Shown piece after piece: positions 920 to 9,999 of a DNA stretch of 39,510 nucleotides. Positions within the stretch are counted from its first letter, which is position 1. Each line of letters starts with the position of its first letter. Position numbers and translations under genes: made by a program. Origin of the DNA: Deltaproteobacteria bacterium (GTDB lineage Bacteria; Myxococcota_A; Polyangia; HGW-17); NCBI GenBank assembly GCA_016937155.1, contig JAFGWM010000018.1:1-39510 (forward strand), read 5' to 3'. Under the pieces are notes generated by a model that worked only from the letters and a program-made list of their open reading frames with translations, was not told the origin of the DNA and ran no database searches.

Positions 920-2353
920 TTATTCGAGGAAAAGATCCCAGTATAAATATTTATTGAAATCAAGGAATTTACTTTCAACCAACTGGATCGATTCCTTCAT
1001 TTTAAGCTGTTCTGAATGAACAACCGTGGGGGTCAGCATAATAGCCAGAGAAGATTTTTCTTCCTGATAATCTCTGGATTTGAACAATTCACCTAAAATT
1101 GGAATATGACCAAGAAGAGGGAATTTTTTAATTGTTTTACTTCTGTTGTTCTTATAGAGGCCACTTATAATAAGGGTGGATCCTTCCTTCATTGTAACGT
1201 TCGTCTCAACTTTTCTTGTTCTGAAGCCTGGAACACCACTCACAGCGAGTGACCAATCAACATCAGAAACCTCACTTTTCAGATTGATGGTTATATTTCC
1301 ACGGGAATTGGCAATTGGTTGCAATTCAAGGATTATACCAAACTGCTTCCACTCAATTGTTGAACTGTTGGCAGTAATCATTGGAATTGGAATCTCACCA
1401 CCAACCTGAAGTTTTGCCTTTCCACCACTACCGCAAACAAGCTTTGGCTCAGCCAAAATTCTGGCAACACCATTTTTAAATAGCAAATTCAGTTTGAAAT
1501 TTAAAAGTGCTTCGGGACTCTTCATACTGAACTTCATGGTGTTGGAGCCGGGCCCCATTATGTAGTACTCACCGGTGAACTCTCCACTGAGTACCAATGC
1601 ATCAGGAAGTTCAAGTCCAAAATTTACCATATTGCTGGAACTGATTTCCATGAATCTGACTTTTACCTGAACCTGAGCGCCCTCACCCATTGTCACAAGA
1701 TTGTTAACCTTGAGATGCATTGCACTAATAATAGCTTTCAGTTTTTCCATTTCATTTTTGGAACCGACGGCACCTTCAAGGAAAACTGCACCAGCAACAA
1801 GATTAGCTTTTACGGTTGTCATACCGGCACCCTGCAGAATCTGATTGATCTGTTCAACTGCACTTGGACGATATTTGGTGTAATTAACCACTGATTTTTT
1901 ACCAAAAAGCTCTACAGCTTTCATCACTCTGGCATAATCACCTGCTGTGTATGCATTACCGTCAATTACAATTTTTTCTCCAACGGGCTTTGTGTATATC
2001 CCTTCGGCGTTACCAATAAAAGTGGATATAGCCCTAACCTGTTTTCCAACTCGCACATCAGAAACATCGATTCTAATTCTCACTCTATCGCGGCCGACAG
2101 GAACATAAAGGTCTGTAACACCCTTGGATATTCCCACAACAGTAACTGAAGTATGTGTTGCATTTACAACATCAGCCACTTTGGTATCCAGAATACGGAT
2201 ACTACCTGTGATACGACCGTCAAATTTAATAGTTTCGCTCTGACCAACACTAATGGATATGGTCTGACTTACCTGCTGTGCAGATACCGTCGCCGCCATA
2301 GTTAGTATTAATGTCAAAAGCACCGAATTGGCTAAAGTTTTGAATGCTCTCAC
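920..2353 (-). CDS. cpaC: Tad/type II-like outer-membrane secretin (CpaC family)
   Basis: 477 aa beginning at a GTG (2353) preceded by AGGAGA at 2361-2366. Residues 1-25 are a signal peptide ending TVSAQQ. Residues about 27-98 match the N-terminal domain of pilus secretins (ISVGQSETIKFDGRI, then VADVVNATHTSVTVVGISKG). A middle region follows with BON-like character. The C-terminal half is a bacterial secretin domain with the VPGFRTRKVETNVTMKEG segment, SGLYKNN and the closing FPLLGHIPILGELFKS and LTPTVV segments. Known role of the family: the outer-membrane multimeric channel for Tad/Flp pili or a type II-like secretion machine. The length suits CpaC/RcpA. The FHA gene follows 33 bp downstream. 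No prepilin, TadB/C or CpaB gene is in the window, so the exported substrate is unknown. Confidence 0.9.
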   Translation of the reverse strand: MRAFKTLANSVLLTLILTMAATVSAQQVSQTISISVGQSETIKFDGRITGSIRILDTKVADVVNATHTSVTVVGISKGVTDLYVPVGRDRVRIRIDVSDVRVGKQVRAISTFIGNAEGIYTKPVGEKIVIDGNAYTAGDYARVMKAVELFGKKSVVNYTKYRPSAVEQINQILQGAGMTTVKANLVAGAVFLEGAVGSKNEMEKLKAIISAMHLKVNNLVTMGEGAQVQVKVRFMEISSSNMVNFGLELPDALVLSGEFTGEYYIMGPGSNTMKFSMKSPEALLNFKLNLLFKNGVARILAEPKLVCGSGGKAKLQVGGEIPIPMITANSSTIEWKQFGIILELQPIANSRGNITINLKSEVSDVDWSLAVSGVPGFRTRKVETNVTMKEGSTLIISGLYKNNRSKTIKKFPLLGHIPILGELFKSRDYQEEKSSLAIMLTPTVVHSEQLKMKESIQLVESKFLDFNKYLYWDLFLE

Positions 2354-2652: not shown

Positions 2653-5600
2653 ATGGGCAGAACTACTAAAAACACTATTCTTATTTTTCTTTTTTTCTTT
2701 TCCGTGTCATGTGGAAGGACATGGATTGGACTAAGAGGTGAAGAAAAATGCGGGGACAACATCTGTACCGATTCTGAATCCTGTACTTCCTGCCCTGAAG
2801 ATTGCGGTCAGTGTCCTGAAAAATGTGGAGATGAAATCTGCTCTGGAGAGGAAACATGTCTGAACTGTCAGTTAGACTGTGGTATCTGCAGTTGCGGTAA
2901 TATGGTTTGTGATCCCGATGAAACATGTGAAAGCTGCAGTCAGGATTGTGGCAACTGCCCCGACAAATGCGGTAATGGTGAATGTGATCCCGATGAAACA
3001 TGCAGTACATGCCCGGATGATTGCGGTATCTGTGCCGACTGTGGGGATGGTGAATGCGGTTCAGGTGAATCATGTATTTCGTGTCCGGATGATTGCGGGG
3101 ATTGCCCCGATGAATGCGGTAACGAAATATGCAGTGAAACAGAAGACTGTAATTCCTGTCCTGAAGATTGCGGGGATTGCCCCGATGTCTGTGGAGATGA
3201 AATCTGCACAGGAGCAGAAGACTGTTACAGTTGCAGTAGAGACTGCGGTATCTGCCCGGGATGCGGGGATGGTGTCTGTACATCTCAGGAAACCTGTTCT
3301 TCCTGTCCTGAAGATTGTGGTAATTGTGCAAATATTTGCGGAGATGGTATATGCTCTTTGACTGAAAACTGTAGTGATTGTCCCGACGACTGTGGCAACT
3401 GTCCGGGATACTGTGGAGATTCTGTGTGTCAGCCTGATGAAAACTGTGTCAGTTGTATGACCGATTGCGGAATGTGCGAATCATGTGGGGATGGAATCTG
3501 TTCAGGTGGTGAAAACTGCACGCTTTGCGGAGAGGACTGTGGATATTGCCCTGATACCTGTGGTGACGGTATCTGCGGTTCAACTGAAAACTGCAGCGAC
3601 TGTTCACAGGATTGTGGCGCATGCCCTGCATTTTGTGGAAACAGCAGATGTGAAGTATCTGAAGACTGCAGCAGCTGCCCTTCAGACTGTGGTCAATGTG
3701 CAGGCTGCGGTGATGATGTATGCCTCGAGGATGAAAACTGCCTTAACTGCCCTTCAGACTGTGGGAACTGCACCGGTGTATGTGGGGATGGGATCTGTGA
3801 ACCAATAGAAAGCTGCCTTAGTTGCGTATCAGATTGCGGATACTGTCAGATTGAATGTGGAGATGGTCAGTGTTCCCCACTTGAAAGCTGTCTTAACTGC
3901 CCTGAAGATTGCGGAAAATATAGTGATTCCTGTCGTGATGGTGTGTGTGGCACAACCGAAACATGCGCCTCATGTCCTGATGATTGCGGAGTATGCGCCG
4001 GATGCGGAAATAATATTTGTGATCCAAATGAAACGTGCAGTTCCTGCCCTGTGGACTGTGGATTTTGCGTTGATGTTTGTGGAGATGGTGTCTGCAATGC
4101 TTCTGAAAGTTGCTCCAGTTGCGAATCTGATTGTGGAACATGCAGTTTTACATGCGGAGATGGTATATGCTCCAATCATGAGACATGTCATAGCTGTCCC
4201 TGGGACTGTGGGAAATGCCCGGATATCTGCGGTGACTCTGTCTGCGGCTCCACTGAAAGCTGTGCAACCTGCTCACAGGATTGCGGTAGTTGCGGGGATG
4301 TATGTGGCGACAGAGTATGCGGAATAACAGAAAACTGCATGAGCTGCCCTGGGGATTGTGGGACATGCACCGGATACTGTGGTGACGGTATCTGCAGCCC
4401 GGATACTGTCCCTCCTGAAAACTGTTCCAGTTGCAGTGCTGACTGTGGTTCATGTTCTTCTTGCGGGGATGGAATCTGCTCAGGAGTTGAAACATGCTCA
4501 AACTGCAGTGCAGACTGTGGGACTTGCGAAAGCACCTGTGGGAACTTTATCTGTGAGCTGGATGAAGCATGTTTAAGCTGTCCTGAGGATTGCGGAAATT
4601 GTGATGTCAACTGTGGAGATGGTATATGTGAAGGGTTTATTGAAACATGTTCAAGCTGCTCAAGGGATTGTGGAACATGCCCTGTGAAATGCGGTAACGA
4701 TATATGTGAAGCAACAGAAAGCTGCAGTTCATGTCCGGCTGACTGTGGAACATGTCCACCCCAGTGTGGCGACGGAACATGCGAATTTGGGGAAAGCTGT
4801 ACTTATTGCCCTCAGGATTGTGGTTCCTGCCCCTCGATCTGTGGGAATTTCATCTGTGAGGAAGGTGAGGATTGTCGCAGTTGTGCCATGGACTGTGGTA
4901 TCTGCCCGGACTGCGGAGATGGCGAATGCCTCTATCCTGAAAACTGTAAAACCTGTCCTGCCGACTGTTATGACGAAAATTGCTCTGATAGTTGTGGAGA
5001 TGCATTATGCACTGGTTCAGAAACTTGTGAAAACTGTCCTAGAGACTGCGGAAATTGTAAAATTTGTGGTGATGGTGTCTGCAGCTTTGGGGAAAACTGT
5101 CTAAGCTGCAGGGAGGATTGCGGATGGTGTCCTTCCAGTTGCGGGGATGGCATTTGCTCCTTCTCTGAGAGCTGTGCAGACTGCATAACTGACTGCGGGG
5201 AATGTTCAGATGTATGTGGAGATAATATCTGCGGAACAACTGAAAGCTGCACAAGTTGCTCGGATGACTGCGGATACTGCCCGGATTGTGGTGACGGCAT
5301 CTGTCAAAGCAGTGAAAACTGCATTTCATGTCCGTGGGACTGCGACTTCTGTGATGATACATGCGGAGATGGAATCTGCGGTAGAAGTGAAAACTGCCAG
5401 ATATGTGAAGATGACTGCGGATACTGTCCTGATCTTTGCGGAGATAACATTTGTGGAACAACTGAAACATGTTCCAGCTGTGAGGATGATTGTGGACGCT
5501 GTCCTGATTTGTGCGGGGATGGCAAATGTGGGCCTTCAGAAGACTGTAGAAGTTGCATGACAGATTGTGGTATTTGTCCGGCAGTCTGCGGGGATGGCGT

Positions 5601-5946
5601 CTGCACAAGAACTGAGACATGTCTTTCGTGCCCTGGGGATTGCGGTACATGTATTGCATGTGGTGATGGTGTCTGCAAACCACCTGAAAACTGTGTTCTT
5701 TGTCCAACCGACTGTGGTTTCTGCGAAGACACCTGTGGAGATGGATATTGTGGCATATCAGAAGATTGCACTAACTGTGCCGACGATTGTGGTGGATGCG
5801 GAGATAGATGTTCTGACGAAATCTGTGGCCCTTCTGAAAGCTGTCTAAGTTGCCCTGAAGACTGCGGACTGTGCAGTGATGTCTGCGGGGATGGCATTTG
5901 TGGTTTACAGGAAACATCCATACAGTGTGCCAGAGATTGCAGTTAA
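2653..5946 (+). CDS. Exported giant cysteine-repeat protein (43 six-Cys repeats)
   Basis: The reading frame is open from 2521, but the ATG at 2653 is preferred: it follows GGAGA with an 8-base gap and starts a signal peptide (Lys, then ILIFLFFFSVSC). This gives 1097 aa. The SVSC-Gly could be a lipobox, although Ser at -3 is not typical, so lipoprotein status is likely rather than certain. From residue 33 to the end the protein is 43 consecutive repeats of 23-28 residues with the pattern CG[DN]xxC-x(3)-E-x-C-x-x-C-P-x-D-C-G-x-C. There are about 255 cysteines and frequent Asp/Glu, and no other domain. Six Cys per unit suggests three disulfides per unit and an extended rod outside the cytoplasm, possibly metal-binding through the acidic residues (inference). 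The motif type occurs in surface proteins of myxobacteria and others, but I know no defined function. It is divergent from the secretin operon. Adhesin, filament or matrix roles are all possible. Confidence 0.88.
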   Translation: MGRTTKNTILIFLFFFSVSCGRTWIGLRGEEKCGDNICTDSESCTSCPEDCGQCPEKCGDEICSGEETCLNCQLDCGICSCGNMVCDPDETCESCSQDCGNCPDKCGNGECDPDETCSTCPDDCGICADCGDGECGSGESCISCPDDCGDCPDECGNEICSETEDCNSCPEDCGDCPDVCGDEICTGAEDCYSCSRDCGICPGCGDGVCTSQETCSSCPEDCGNCANICGDGICSLTENCSDCPDDCGNCPGYCGDSVCQPDENCVSCMTDCGMCESCGDGICSGGENCTLCGEDCGYCPDTCGDGICGSTENCSDCSQDCGACPAFCGNSRCEVSEDCSSCPSDCGQCAGCGDDVCLEDENCLNCPSDCGNCTGVCGDGICEPIESCLSCVSDCGYCQIECGDGQCSPLESCLNCPEDCGKYSDSCRDGVCGTTETCASCPDDCGVCAGCGNNICDPNETCSSCPVDCGFCVDVCGDGVCNASESCSSCESDCGTCSFTCGDGICSNHETCHSCPWDCGKCPDICGDSVCGSTESCATCSQDCGSCGDVCGDRVCGITENCMSCPGDCGTCTGYCGDGICSPDTVPPENCSSCSADCGSCSSCGDGICSGVETCSNCSADCGTCESTCGNFICELDEACLSCPEDCGNCDVNCGDGICEGFIETCSSCSRDCGTCPVKCGNDICEATESCSSCPADCGTCPPQCGDGTCEFGESCTYCPQDCGSCPSICGNFICEEGEDCRSCAMDCGICPDCGDGECLYPENCKTCPADCYDENCSDSCGDALCTGSETCENCPRDCGNCKICGDGVCSFGENCLSCREDCGWCPSSCGDGICSFSESCADCITDCGECSDVCGDNICGTTESCTSCSDDCGYCPDCGDGICQSSENCISCPWDCDFCDDTCGDGICGRSENCQICEDDCGYCPDLCGDNICGTTETCSSCEDDCGRCPDLCGDGKCGPSEDCRSCMTDCGICPAVCGDGVCTRTETCLSCPGDCGTCIACGDGVCKPPENCVLCPTDCGFCEDTCGDGYCGISEDCTNCADDCGGCGDRCSDEICGPSESCLSCPEDCGLCSDVCGDGICGLQETSIQCARDCS
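2749..5943 (+). repeat. 43 tandem coding repeats, about 74 nt each
   Basis: The units are conserved at protein level but differ in codon choice (TGC and TGT mixed, varying third positions), so this is an old or diversifying array and not a recent DNA amplification. Most units are 25 residues. Units 4, 7, 10 and 13 are 24 residues, one residue shorter at the linker, giving a three-unit superperiod in the first third; later 24-residue units (17, 29, 31, 34, 39) are irregular. Unit 16 (3856-3930) has lost its sixth Cys. Unit 23 (4378-4461) carries a short Pro insertion. Unit 30 (4912-4992) has its sixth Cys displaced. The last unit keeps only four Cys and ends at the stop. Confidence 0.92.
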
Positions 5947-6036: not shown

Positions 6037-8094
6037 ATGTTTAATTCTCTGCTATTTCTAATTATGCCAGCCATGTCTTCAGGCAGCAGTGTTGCTGATG
6101 ATGACTTTCCGGTGCCAGCACTGAATACAAGACAGCGAGCCTCGATAATCTCCGAATTGGACAGTCCAAATGCTCTTGTTCGACTCAGAGCAGCATCACG
6201 AATTGGTGAAGAAAAACTTAAAAATGCCATTCCTCACCTGATATCTAGGCTGAATGACTCAAATCCTACCGTGAGAGCTGAGGTCATAAAATCCCTCGGA
6301 ATTCTGAAAGTGAAAACTGTTGCAAATAAGGTTTATAAATACCTTCTGCATGATCCAAGTCCTCTGGTGAGAGCTCGCAGCGCCACTGCTCTGGGAAAAA
6401 TGAAATTCTATCAGGCTGTCCCGGCAATTATACCACTACTGGACAGACCGGATATCAGAGAACGTCTGGCGGCAATAAACGCTTTAGGAAGATTGGGTGG
6501 TCCCAAAGTATTGAAATTAATCACACGAAATCTCGCCAGTTCGAACAGTGAAATAAGGGAGGCTGCTCTCCACGCTCTTGCAGTTCTCAAGGACAAAAGG
6601 GCTGTTTTTTATCTTCACAGGTATATTGAGAGCGGAAATATGGATATCAAAAGAGCTGCTATCAGTGCTCTGAGTATCCGGGATCCTGATTTTTTAAAAG
6701 GCCGGGTTAAAAACCTTCTGAATATTCAGAATGACGAACTTCAACTTGTCGTGCTTGAAGCTATTTCACTTGTTGGATGCCCGGAATGTGAGAAAAAAAT
6801 CAATGAACTGATTAAAACCGGGAATGACCGGATAAGCTGCAAAGCGGCGAGTGTTGCTGCATATCTGAATATCACAAGCAGTATTGATGATATCCTTTAC
6901 AGATTAAGGATGAATCCGACTGTGGCGGCAAAAATGGGATATCTCTGGGCATGTTCACGACTTGGAGCATTGCAGTGTATCAATGATGGTCTTCAGTTTT
7001 TGTCCAGTCCCACATCTGAACAGAAACTTCTTGGGCTGAAAGCACTGAGAATCCTGCGGGCAGCAAGAGCGGATTTGAAGTCACATGTACTTCATTTGCT
7101 GCACGACCATGATAACTCTGTACTAGCTGAAGCAGTCAACTTTCTTTCAGAATATGGTGATCGCAGATTTGTTGATACATCAGGTATAATAAATTCCAGA
7201 TCTCCGGAAATCATCTCATCTCTGGCTAGAAGTCTCAGATGGATTACACCTGCAGAGAAGGAAATTTTAAGAAAAGTTACCGGATGGCTCTCAAGTGACG
7301 ATAATAAAATCAGGGCTGCCGGAGCCCTGGCTGCCGGGATTAGCGGTGATATTAAATACAGTGGAAAACTCCTGTCACTTATCTACAGCCAAGACCTGAA
7401 ACTTAAAAAAGAAGTCGTAATTTCAACTATTCTATTAAAAACACAATACTCCAGTGGAGCATATAATTATCTCGTTAACAGGGAACAGGATAGTGAGTTG
7501 ATAGCACTGGCTCTTCTTGGGCTTTCGATGCTTAACTGGAACAAAAATGTGGAAATAAAATTAATAACTCACCTGAACAGAAGTCTGAAAAAAAGAGATG
7601 AGATAACAGAATTCATATGTTCTTTTGCGTTACTCAATTCCGAGAAAACAGAGCACATAAATAATTTTAATAAAATATTCAGTAGAATTTTCTTCTCAGG
7701 ATTCAACAGCTCAAAAAAACTATATTTAATGAACCTTTTAAAAATAGCTGATGTTAAAAAAAGCAGAGAGTGGTTCCAGAAACTGGCAGACAGCCCACTA
7801 CACAGAGTTAAAATTCACGCTTACCGCTTTTTAGCCCGTTTCAATGAAGAAAACTCAAAAGTGGTTCAAAAAACCAAGCCGGCTGTTAATAAAAACCCAG
7901 GTATCAGTTCTGAAAGGACAATGCTTCAACTTCCTTTTAAATCAAAGCAGAATGAAAACGATGGATGTGCATGTCTTGCAGGAAAATCTGCAACTGATTC
8001 ATCCAAAAAGAGTGCAGGAATCCTGATACTCTTTTTTGCTGTTTCACTTATTTTCATCAGAAAAAAATATGAAAATGTCATCAGAAAATATTGA
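6037..8094 (+). CDS. HEAT-repeat protein with MYXO-CTERM-like C-terminal anchor
   Basis: 685 aa. An in-frame stop lies three codons before the ATG at 6037, so no earlier start is possible; the ribosome site is weak. Residues 1-20 (SLLFLIMPAM) form a hydrophobic segment that may be a signal peptide, though it lacks the usual basic start. Residues about 28-210 hold roughly six clear HEAT/PBS-lyase-type repeats (for example VRLRAASRIG, VRAEVIKSLG, VRARSATALGKM, IREAALHAL), and weaker helical repeats continue to about 600. The end is tripartite: a Gly-Cys-Ala-Cys motif at 643-646, a hydrophobic helix at about 660-674, and a basic tail (RKK..). This resembles the MYXO-CTERM sorting signal, suggesting export and surface anchoring. 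It overlaps the isomerase gene by 26 bp, so the two are probably translated together. HEAT repeats indicate protein binding; the partner is unknown. Confidence 0.85.
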   Translation: MFNSLLFLIMPAMSSGSSVADDDFPVPALNTRQRASIISELDSPNALVRLRAASRIGEEKLKNAIPHLISRLNDSNPTVRAEVIKSLGILKVKTVANKVYKYLLHDPSPLVRARSATALGKMKFYQAVPAIIPLLDRPDIRERLAAINALGRLGGPKVLKLITRNLASSNSEIREAALHALAVLKDKRAVFYLHRYIESGNMDIKRAAISALSIRDPDFLKGRVKNLLNIQNDELQLVVLEAISLVGCPECEKKINELIKTGNDRISCKAASVAAYLNITSSIDDILYRLRMNPTVAAKMGYLWACSRLGALQCINDGLQFLSSPTSEQKLLGLKALRILRAARADLKSHVLHLLHDHDNSVLAEAVNFLSEYGDRRFVDTSGIINSRSPEIISSLARSLRWITPAEKEILRKVTGWLSSDDNKIRAAGALAAGISGDIKYSGKLLSLIYSQDLKLKKEVVISTILLKTQYSSGAYNYLVNREQDSELIALALLGLSMLNWNKNVEIKLITHLNRSLKKRDEITEFICSFALLNSEKTEHINNFNKIFSRIFFSGFNSSKKLYLMNLLKIADVKKSREWFQKLADSPLHRVKIHAYRFLARFNEENSKVVQKTKPAVNKNPGISSERTMLQLPFKSKQNENDGCACLAGKSATDSSKKSAGILILFFAVSLIFIRKKYENVIRKY

Positions 8095-9115
8095 TTCAAG
8101 AAAAAATCGCCATCTCAGATATTTTACAACTGATGAAAAACCTCATCGTAATTTTTTTGATGACATTTATCTGTTTAATTCACCACTTGCTCCACTAAAC
8201 ACTGATGCAATCGATACCGGATGTACATTTTCAGGGAGTGGTTTATCCTTTCCGGCAATGATCAGTGCTGTGACCGGCGGGACAGATGAAGGAGCTGAAC
8301 TTAATCGTCTGATGGCTCAGGCTGCGGCTGTTCATAAAATTGCCTTTCAGTCGGGAAGCATCAGAATTGCCCTTGAAAATCCTGAACTTACACCTCACTT
8401 TCAATTAAACAGGCAAAAAGAACTCTCTTTCTATGCTCTAAATATCGGAGCTGTTCAACTGGGAGAATATCCCGTGTCACAGATTTCTGATTTAATGTGT
8501 AAAACAAATGCGCATGCATTGTTTATACATCTTAATAAGCTTCAGGAGCTGGCGCAGGACTCAGGAGACAGGGACTTTTCTCAAATAAAAAGAAGTATTA
8601 CAGAAACTGTTAAAAATCTGGGATTCCCGGTTTTTTTGAAGGAAACCGGCTGTGGATTTGGCCCTGAGCTTCTGGAACACTACATTGCATCCGGTATTGC
8701 TGGAGTTGATACAGGGGGATACGGAGGAACTGATTTTCTGGAAATAGAAAATCAGGGAAATTCAAATAGTGAGTTAATGAAACCATTTGAAAACTGGGGA
8801 GTTCCAACACCGGTATCTGTAATGTTAAATAAAAGTAAGAATATTGAACTCATCGCTGGTGGTGGAGTCAGGAACGGGCTGGATGCTTTAAAAGCTCTTG
8901 CCGTAGGGGCAAATCTGGTAAGTTTTGCTGGTCCGGTTGTAAGGGCTTATTACAAATCCGGATTGAACGGAATTAATAATTTTCTGAAAAATTTCTTTAC
9001 TCAGTTCAGATACGCCATGCTTCTCACAGGAATTTCATGTATTGATGAAATACCAAAACTAAAATACTCCATCAGTCATCAACTTGAGAGCTACCTCAAC
9101 ATACGGAAATCCTAA
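8069..9115 (+). CDS. fni: Type 2 isopentenyl-diphosphate delta-isomerase
   Basis: 348 aa from ATG 8069; a second ATG lies at 8075, and no strong ribosome site separates them. The open frame extends to 8036 but that start is less likely. The enzyme interconverts isopentenyl and dimethylallyl diphosphate using FMN, Mg and reduced nicotinamide cofactor, in the cytoplasm. Family features seen: RKNRH near residue 11, the flavin-binding TGGTDEG at 69-75, the HLNKLQE segment with the conserved Gln-Glu pair, FLKETGCGFG, DTGGYGGTDF, WGVPTPVS, and a final phosphate-binding AGGGVRNGLDALKALAVGA. The length matches the family. It overlaps the end of the HEAT gene and stops 2 bp before mevalonate kinase, indicating a single transcript. 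It is the last step of making both C5 isoprenoid units from mevalonate. Confidence 0.94.
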   Translation: MKMSSENIDSRKNRHLRYFTTDEKPHRNFFDDIYLFNSPLAPLNTDAIDTGCTFSGSGLSFPAMISAVTGGTDEGAELNRLMAQAAAVHKIAFQSGSIRIALENPELTPHFQLNRQKELSFYALNIGAVQLGEYPVSQISDLMCKTNAHALFIHLNKLQELAQDSGDRDFSQIKRSITETVKNLGFPVFLKETGCGFGPELLEHYIASGIAGVDTGGYGGTDFLEIENQGNSNSELMKPFENWGVPTPVSVMLNKSKNIELIAGGGVRNGLDALKALAVGANLVSFAGPVVRAYYKSGLNGINNFLKNFFTQFRYAMLLTGISCIDEIPKLKYSISHQLESYLNIRKS

Positions 9116-9117
9116 CA

Positions 9118-9999
9118 ATGTATACTGCGCATGGAAAGGCGATTCTCCTTGGTGAACATAGCGTTCTATATGGTTCCGGTGCTCTTTGTATCCCTTTAAA
9201 GACAAGGGTTGAATGCTATTTTGTTCATGAGACAGAATGGAAAATCACAATCAATGATGAATTATTCAGAGATAAAAAAGCCTTCGGGCAACTCATAAAA
9301 ATTCTTGAAGATTATTCAGACACTGGTCACTTCAGTTTTGAAACTGAAATACCACCTGGGGCAGGACTTGGCTTCAGTGCCGCAATCAGCAACATTTTTT
9401 CACAGTTCTGCCTGAGAAACTCCAGCCCGTCTCTAAAGGATATTAATTCACTGTCATATAGATTTGAACAGATATTTCATAAAACGCCTTCGGGGCTTGA
9501 TAATACTGCAGTAACCTATAACTCTCCTGTTTTTGTGCTTTCTCAGACATCTTCTATAAAAAATATGATAAATCTGAAACATATACATGGTAACTTTTAT
9601 CTGACAGATATTAATCCGGAAATTATTACAGGGTTTTGTGGAAGTGTCACGCCAACATCTCAGATGGTTGAAACATTCAGGGGTCTTCCTGATGATAAAA
9701 AAGCTTTTTTTGCTACAAATATAGATTCGTTGATCAGTTCGTTTGTTAAATCATACACTGATAGTGACATGAAATCATGCGGACAGTATCTGACTGAGTC
9801 ACACCGGCTATTATGCGAAATGAAAATGTCTTCACCTCAACTTGACGAAATGGTGGAAATTGCCCTTGAAGCCGGGGCGTGGGGAGCAAAAATGACTGGT
9901 GGCGGCGGTGGTGGATGTGTAATTTCAATGGCACCCCCAAGTAAAACTGAAATGATAATAAAAAGGTGGGCAGAAAACGGTTACAGAACTATTGGTTAA
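9118..9999 (+). CDS. mvk: Mevalonate kinase (GHMP family)
   Basis: 293 aa. It phosphorylates mevalonate with ATP in the mevalonate route to isoprenoids. The three GHMP motifs are visible: HGKAILLGEHSVLYG at residues 5-19 (Lys7), PPGAGLGFSAA at 79-89, and KMTGGGGGGC at 258-267. PSGLDN at 125-129 supplies the likely catalytic Asp128. The segment GSVTPTSQMV matches the mevalonate kinase subgroup better than galactokinase or homoserine kinase. Oddity: Phe86 stands where the family normally has the first Ser of GLGSSAA, in the nucleotide-phosphate loop. The gene starts 2 bp after the isomerase stop. It converges with the zinc-finger gene, and the two stop codons overlap on TTAA. Phosphomevalonate kinase and the decarboxylase must lie elsewhere. 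Confidence 0.9.
   Translation: MYTAHGKAILLGEHSVLYGSGALCIPLKTRVECYFVHETEWKITINDELFRDKKAFGQLIKILEDYSDTGHFSFETEIPPGAGLGFSAAISNIFSQFCLRNSSPSLKDINSLSYRFEQIFHKTPSGLDNTAVTYNSPVFVLSQTSSIKNMINLKHIHGNFYLTDINPEIITGFCGSVTPTSQMVETFRGLPDDKKAFFATNIDSLISSFVKSYTDSDMKSCGQYLTESHRLLCEMKMSSPQLDEMVEIALEAGAWGAKMTGGGGGGCVISMAPPSKTEMIIKRWAENGYRTIG

Follow-up and report, generated by a model that had tools for sequence, protein, structure and literature searches.

The window analyzed here, which is a complete contig (39.5 kb) of a genome of 4.1 Mb, encodes a predicted lipoprotein with an array of 43 cysteine-rich units, whose number, lengths and unit-specific residues have been kept between bacterial families, whereas the number of units in a tandem repeat protein usually changes fast. 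Neither Pfam nor NCBIfam has a model for this repeat type, nor is there a solved structure of it; if the length of the array were selected, the protein would be a naturally occurring ruler or stalk, stiffened by disulfides, at the surface of a bacterium. Judged from sequence comparison, it is the conservation of unit number and unit identity, rather than the length of the array, that is unusual.

Gene, Predicted Lipid Anchor and Repeat Units

The open reading frame (2521/2653-5946, forward strand) gives a precursor of 1097 amino acids when read from the ATG at 2653; a GGAG precedes this start by 9 bases, and the starts of the orthologs agree with it. The lipoprotein pattern PS51257 is found at the N-terminus, MGRTTKNTILIFLFFFSVS-C-GRT, and likewise in all 11 relatives compared, each of which also carries G-R after the lipobox cysteine; the residue at -3 of the window lipobox is a serine, which is less typical. 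With a lipobox in the window protein and in all 11 relatives, we predict a lipid-anchored lipoprotein rather than a simply exported one, its mature form starting at Cys20 and comprising about 1078 residues. An initial annotation of this DNA had described the protein simply as exported and had missed the lipobox. Glycine after this cysteine makes sorting to the outer membrane likely.

After a linker of 12 residues that separates the lipobox cysteine from the first unit, the protein is composed of units only, which begin at residue 33, continue up to the stop codon and are mostly 24 or 25 amino acids long (range 20 to 28); this bears out the earlier description of a single-purpose array of 43 units with no other domain. 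The precursor contains 256 cysteines, each of which is either Cys20 or within a unit; about 255 had been given before, and the 1097 residues then ascribed to the mature protein are those of the precursor. The protein is also acidic, as had been proposed (precursor pI 4.05, charge of about -190 at pH 7), and six cysteines per unit hold for most units, the exceptions being unit 16, with five, and unit 43, with four. The last unit also has four cysteines in three of the orthologs described below (G001, G002 and G100). When the 35 regular units are aligned, C1, G2, C6, E10, C12, C15, D18, C19, G20 and C22 are invariant; P16, previously given as a fixed part of the motif, is common without being fully so.

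The mean unit-to-unit DNA identity is 0.59, and 0.42 at third positions, the protein pattern being kept nonetheless. Since the units diverge in DNA yet share this pattern, and since orthologs exist in other genomes, chance is ruled out and the array is real.

Table 1. Features of the array gene and of its neighbors in the window.
Feature	Position	Strand	Basis
Tad-type secretin (Secretin + T2SS-T3SS_pil_N), divergent neighbor	920..2353	-	Domains; adjoins the array otherwise in G001 and G002 only
Predicted lipoprotein gene, 43 cysteine-rich units, 1097-aa precursor	2653..5946	+	ORF, unit count, orthologs elsewhere
Predicted signal peptide MGRTTKNTILIFLFFFSVS, residues 1-19	2653..2709	+	Sequence; PS51257 lipobox pattern
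Cys20, predicted lipidated, mature residue 1; C-G-R-[TSQA] kept in relatives	2710..2712	+	Sequence comparison
Array, 43 units CG[DN]xxC-x3-E-x-C-xx-C-xx-D-C-G-x-C	2749..5943	+	Sequence, unit counts
Unit 16, C22 substituted (CGDGQCSPLESCLNCPEDCGKYSDS), 5 Cys	3856..3930	+	Unit table
Unit 27, top position conservation over four families	4690..4764	+	Four-family position score
Unit 38, runner-up in position conservation	5512..5586	+	Four-family position score
Unit 43, last, 4-Cys, without C12 and C22	5884..5943	+	Unit table
HEAT-repeat protein, downstream	6037..8094	+	Domains; adjoins the array otherwise in G001 and G002 only

Unit-by-Unit Conservation Between Families

Positional orthologs were found in 9 of 318 genomes sampled from the class, so that the gene is a patchy one: the source genome and two others of its family (G001, a Myxococcota MAG of the same genus, JAHJMN01, and G002), one genome of the same order (G010), four of family f8 (G016, G025, G033 and G041) and one of family f11 (G100). 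Arrays were counted as such when short units lie at the same positions from the C-terminal end and the best unit match falls at offset 0; both features were found directly in the window, G001, G002, G010, G016 and G041, while G033, G025 and G100 were assigned by their unit-length register.

There are 43 units in the window, G001, G002 and G016, 44 in G025 and G041, and 45 in G010, and in G033, whose array is truncated to 42 by the end of the contig, a total of 43 is implied by the register (the counts for G010, G025 and G033 shift by one with the unit pattern used). These arrays come from three GTDB families of the class; the version of a fourth, in G100, has 29 units. In all six arrays tabulated, units of 24 residues occupy positions 1, 5, 10, 13, 15, 27, 31, 34 and 40 from the C-terminal end, position 1 being the shortened last unit. 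Furthermore, each unit resembles most closely the unit of the same number: at fixed offsets, no other mean score is as high as that at offset 0, with z values for the window of 20.4 against G001, 10.6 against G002, 5.9 against G016, 5.2 against G041 and 4.2 against G010, and the position score over four families is 5.59 bits, compared with 3.97 ± 0.20 in 200 shuffles. These fixed-offset and shuffle tests were used instead of a dynamic-programming pairing of units, whose scores the alignment itself inflates. Positional orthology across families is thereby supported, and such unit-by-unit homology means that the array, as read from these comparisons, is an old one that exchange between units has not remade, i.e., that there has been no unit turnover.

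Purifying selection on the coding sequence is supported by dN/dS values of 0.23 (G016/G033) and 0.16 (G041/G025) in two close pairs, or 0.33 and 0.22 when cysteine codons are excluded; the window and G001 proteins are 68% identical, and at this distance their genes show saturation of synonymous sites. As a separate observation, the otherwise intact 44-unit ortholog of G025 (L056) contains one in-frame TGA near position 8467 on the reverse strand, which could correspond to a sequencing error, a pseudogene or a recoding event.

Occurrence of the Repeat Beyond the Orthologs

Long arrays as such are not unique, with matches at E <= 1e-60 in 25 of the 379 genomes of the Myxococcota sample, source genome counted. 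The repeat is present in many Myxococcota lipoproteins, the other arrays of the phylum having 12 to 43 units or an irregular spacing, and within the source genome it occurs at about 12 further places (E < 0.001). A locus of the source genome (L058, contig C34, 9225-11081, reverse strand) encodes a paralogous lipoprotein of 618 amino acids with at least 12 units, and similar proteins exist in the same family (L059, L061, L062 and L064). Several shorter lipoproteins of the phylum (G008/L066, G011/L063, G182/L087, G183/L086 and G160/L093) resemble the window protein in the Cys-G-R of the lipobox and in the repeat, but contain 12 to 15 units and extra cysteine-rich domains, either between units or C-terminal; with so few units, they cannot be matched position by position to the array of 43.

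A second lipoprotein array of 43 units, with a CGRT anchor, is found in another family of the class (G124; L082, 430-4131, forward strand). Its units are homogenized, of 26 amino acids, with a mean identity, cysteines left aside, of 0.62 vs. 0.40 in the window, and it ends in a four-cysteine unit and a short extra cysteine-rich tail. Its 43 units, counted in one assembled genome, may be a coincidence.

Plasmids gave no match to the array. On viral-labeled contigs there are four loci with just 3-4 units each, for which reason a phage system was rejected; one of them (L107, 2805-5258, forward strand) encodes a subtilase-like protein with three units at its C-terminus.

Genomic Neighbors

A divergent Tad-type secretin, to which the initial annotation had drawn attention, accompanies the array in the three genomes of the window's family but not in the others. 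In G001, the gene after that for the secretin encodes an ATPase of T2SS/T4SS type with an FHA fusion. The neighbors of the G010 array are an aminotransferase and an alpha-2-macroglobulin, and those scanned around the f8 arrays include no Pfam-recognized secretion gene. As the orthologs in G010 and f8 have other neighbors, the array travels without Tad genes, and the Tad linkage was rejected as a functional clue beyond the window's family.

Two further observations concern these surroundings. Next to the HEAT-repeat gene of the window, genes for a type 2 isopentenyl-diphosphate isomerase and a mevalonate-kinase-like protein (8036-9999, forward strand), which score just under curated cut-offs, are kept in G001 and G002. 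In G033, a gene with Dictyostelium-type repeats (L052, 1-3219, forward strand; PF00526, E 2.7e-10) precedes the array at a distance of about 4 kb.

Disulfides and Fold

Among 1137 distinct units, whose relatedness inflates the joint count, C12 and C22 are both lost in 147, whereas 22 and 25 units lack just one of the two; C1, C6, C15 and C19 are rarely lost. Within the positional orthologs, G100 has five units from which C12 and C22 are both gone and none that lacks only one. At four of these positions the other orthologs have six-cysteine units, the remaining position being that of the last unit. Joint loss points to a C12-C22 disulfide within the unit, and in unit 16, which lacks C22 only, one unpaired cysteine would be expected. 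There is thus evidence for disulfide pairing within the unit, as suggested earlier; losses of the other four cysteines are too few to show how these pair.

Two AlphaFold2 models, both built from units of the window and of G001 (the second also took two rows from viral-labeled contigs; another alignment, with overlapping fragments out of register, was set aside), reached pLDDT 65 and 75 and pTM 0.26 and 0.35, and they leave the compact rod neither confirmed nor refuted. Both place one 4-residue helix in each unit, and because confidence is low no rod geometry was derived from them. Comparison of these low-confidence models with the PDB gave nothing significant (Foldseek E 1.9-4.3; no Z >= 2 for the first model). 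The top Foldseek rows, the Notch3 NRR and PAPP-A, both with LNR modules, have E > 1 and are taken as a lead only. Sequence matches to solved structures, copper storage proteins and a tetraether synthase, were rejected as spurious cysteine-composition matches.

Possible Roles of the Array

The explanation that we prefer, and that we hold to be about evenly balanced between right and wrong, is that of an outer-membrane lipoprotein forming a headless, disulfide-stiffened rod of constrained length. The protein would be exported by its signal with lipobox and anchored by lipid at C20; the array, which begins 12 residues past the anchor, runs to the stop codon, so that no head domain would be displayed; C12 and C22 would be paired inside the unit; and the roughly 43 units are maintained one by one under purifying selection, all steps that the sequences support. 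The 43 units of the homogenized G124 array, which has a CGRT anchor too, also speak for this reading. Beyond this, we infer the shape of the rod, its location at the surface, its function and a binding of Ca2+. With glycine following the lipidated cysteine, the mature protein would reach the outer membrane, each unit would form a small knot with three disulfides, in which the conserved acids [DN]3, E10 and D18 might provide a Ca2+ site, and the units would stack into an acidic rod of about 65-110 nm, assuming 1.5-2.5 nm per unit. Such a rod would be too long to stand upright in the periplasm and so would lie on the surface or project from it, as a stalk, a spacer or a surface coat, in which particular units (27 and 38) would likely carry specific contacts.

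Against this rod stand the low-confidence models of the fold, with no significant PDB match, and the patchy occurrence of the gene. As to its fixed length, G100, with 29 units, means that 43 is not universal, and the unit number may be kept in a diverged array for no other reason than that recombination between its units has ceased. That the length has no selected function at all, the number being frozen in units too diverged for recombination, would agree with their DNA identity of 0.59 and with the 12 to 43 units, or irregular spacing, of the other arrays in the phylum; dN/dS values of 0.16-0.23 and position-specific residues kept between families nevertheless indicate that the protein, though not its length as such, is selected, and we regard this account as quite improbable. 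At the other extreme, the array could be a molecular ruler at the surface, whose unit number (about 43) is itself selected, is kept across families, was reached again by the homogenized array of G124 and sets a fixed distance outside the outer membrane, which seems to us doubtful.

A tentative alternative, which deserves to be kept in mind, is multivalent binding by a surface adhesin or ligand-binding coat with the units as binding sites, so that positional conservation would reflect unit-specific binding and not length. Units 27, 38 and 31 stand far above the others in position conservation, the top-scoring units are all in the C-terminal half, and there is no head domain to bind; on the other hand, most of the variable positions differ between families and no known binding module matches. 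The charge of about -190, together with the conservation of [DN]3, E10 and D18 in each regular unit, would also suit an envelope protein that serves as a metal buffer or store, or whose Ca2+ bridges give order to the surface. The weak Notch3 NRR and PAPP-A rows contain Ca2+-binding LNR modules. We find this metal role unlikely: those rows are at E > 1, disulfides account better than thiolate metal clusters for C12 and C22 being lost jointly, and the copper-storage-protein matches reflect cysteine composition with high bias. Very unlikely, finally, is a lipoprotein serving the secretin or pilus of the neighboring Tad-type system, which is suggested by the divergent arrangement in three genomes of the window's family and by the ATPase gene of G001, and is contradicted by the other neighbors of the orthologs in two further families (G010 and f8).

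Comparison With Known Families and Systems

The earlier statement that no described family corresponds to this repeat is upheld by the absence of Pfam, NCBIfam and solved-structure matches. As the HMMER composition filter may drop a whole array, short pieces were scanned as well: Pfam gave no real match to the array, the whole protein or the pieces, and NCBIfam none to the whole protein (E <= 1) and one spurious match, outside the repeat type, to the pieces (E <= 10).

LNR modules, such as those of Notch3 and PAPP-A, are small three-disulfide Ca2+ modules and appear as weak structural rows for the window units, but their length and cysteine spacing are unlike those of the unit, with no Pfam match and Foldseek E > 1. 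DUF4215 (PF13948) shares the CGDG-x4-GE-x-C start of the unit and differs from its second half, C-xx-C-xx-D-C-G-x-C; a two-unit piece reaches at best 8.9 bits vs. the curated cut-off of 27 bits. One protein of the source genome (L026, contig C25) mixes four-cysteine units of this repeat with CDDGN repeats of a DUF4215-like kind, a hint at a relationship between the two types.

The closest functional parallel is TraA of Myxococcus xanthus, like the window protein an exported myxobacterial protein with tandem cysteine-rich repeats, in its case of the TIGR04201 type (PMC3325183, PMC12045341). TraA bears a PA14-like/variable recognition head and a C-terminal MYXO-CTERM, whereas the window protein, in which Pfam and NCBIfam scans found neither these nor TIGR04201 repeats, has an N-terminal lipobox and 43 units. 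The repeats of TraA have been proposed to constitute a disulfide-stiffened stalk for presentation at the cell surface (PMC3325183, PMC12045341).
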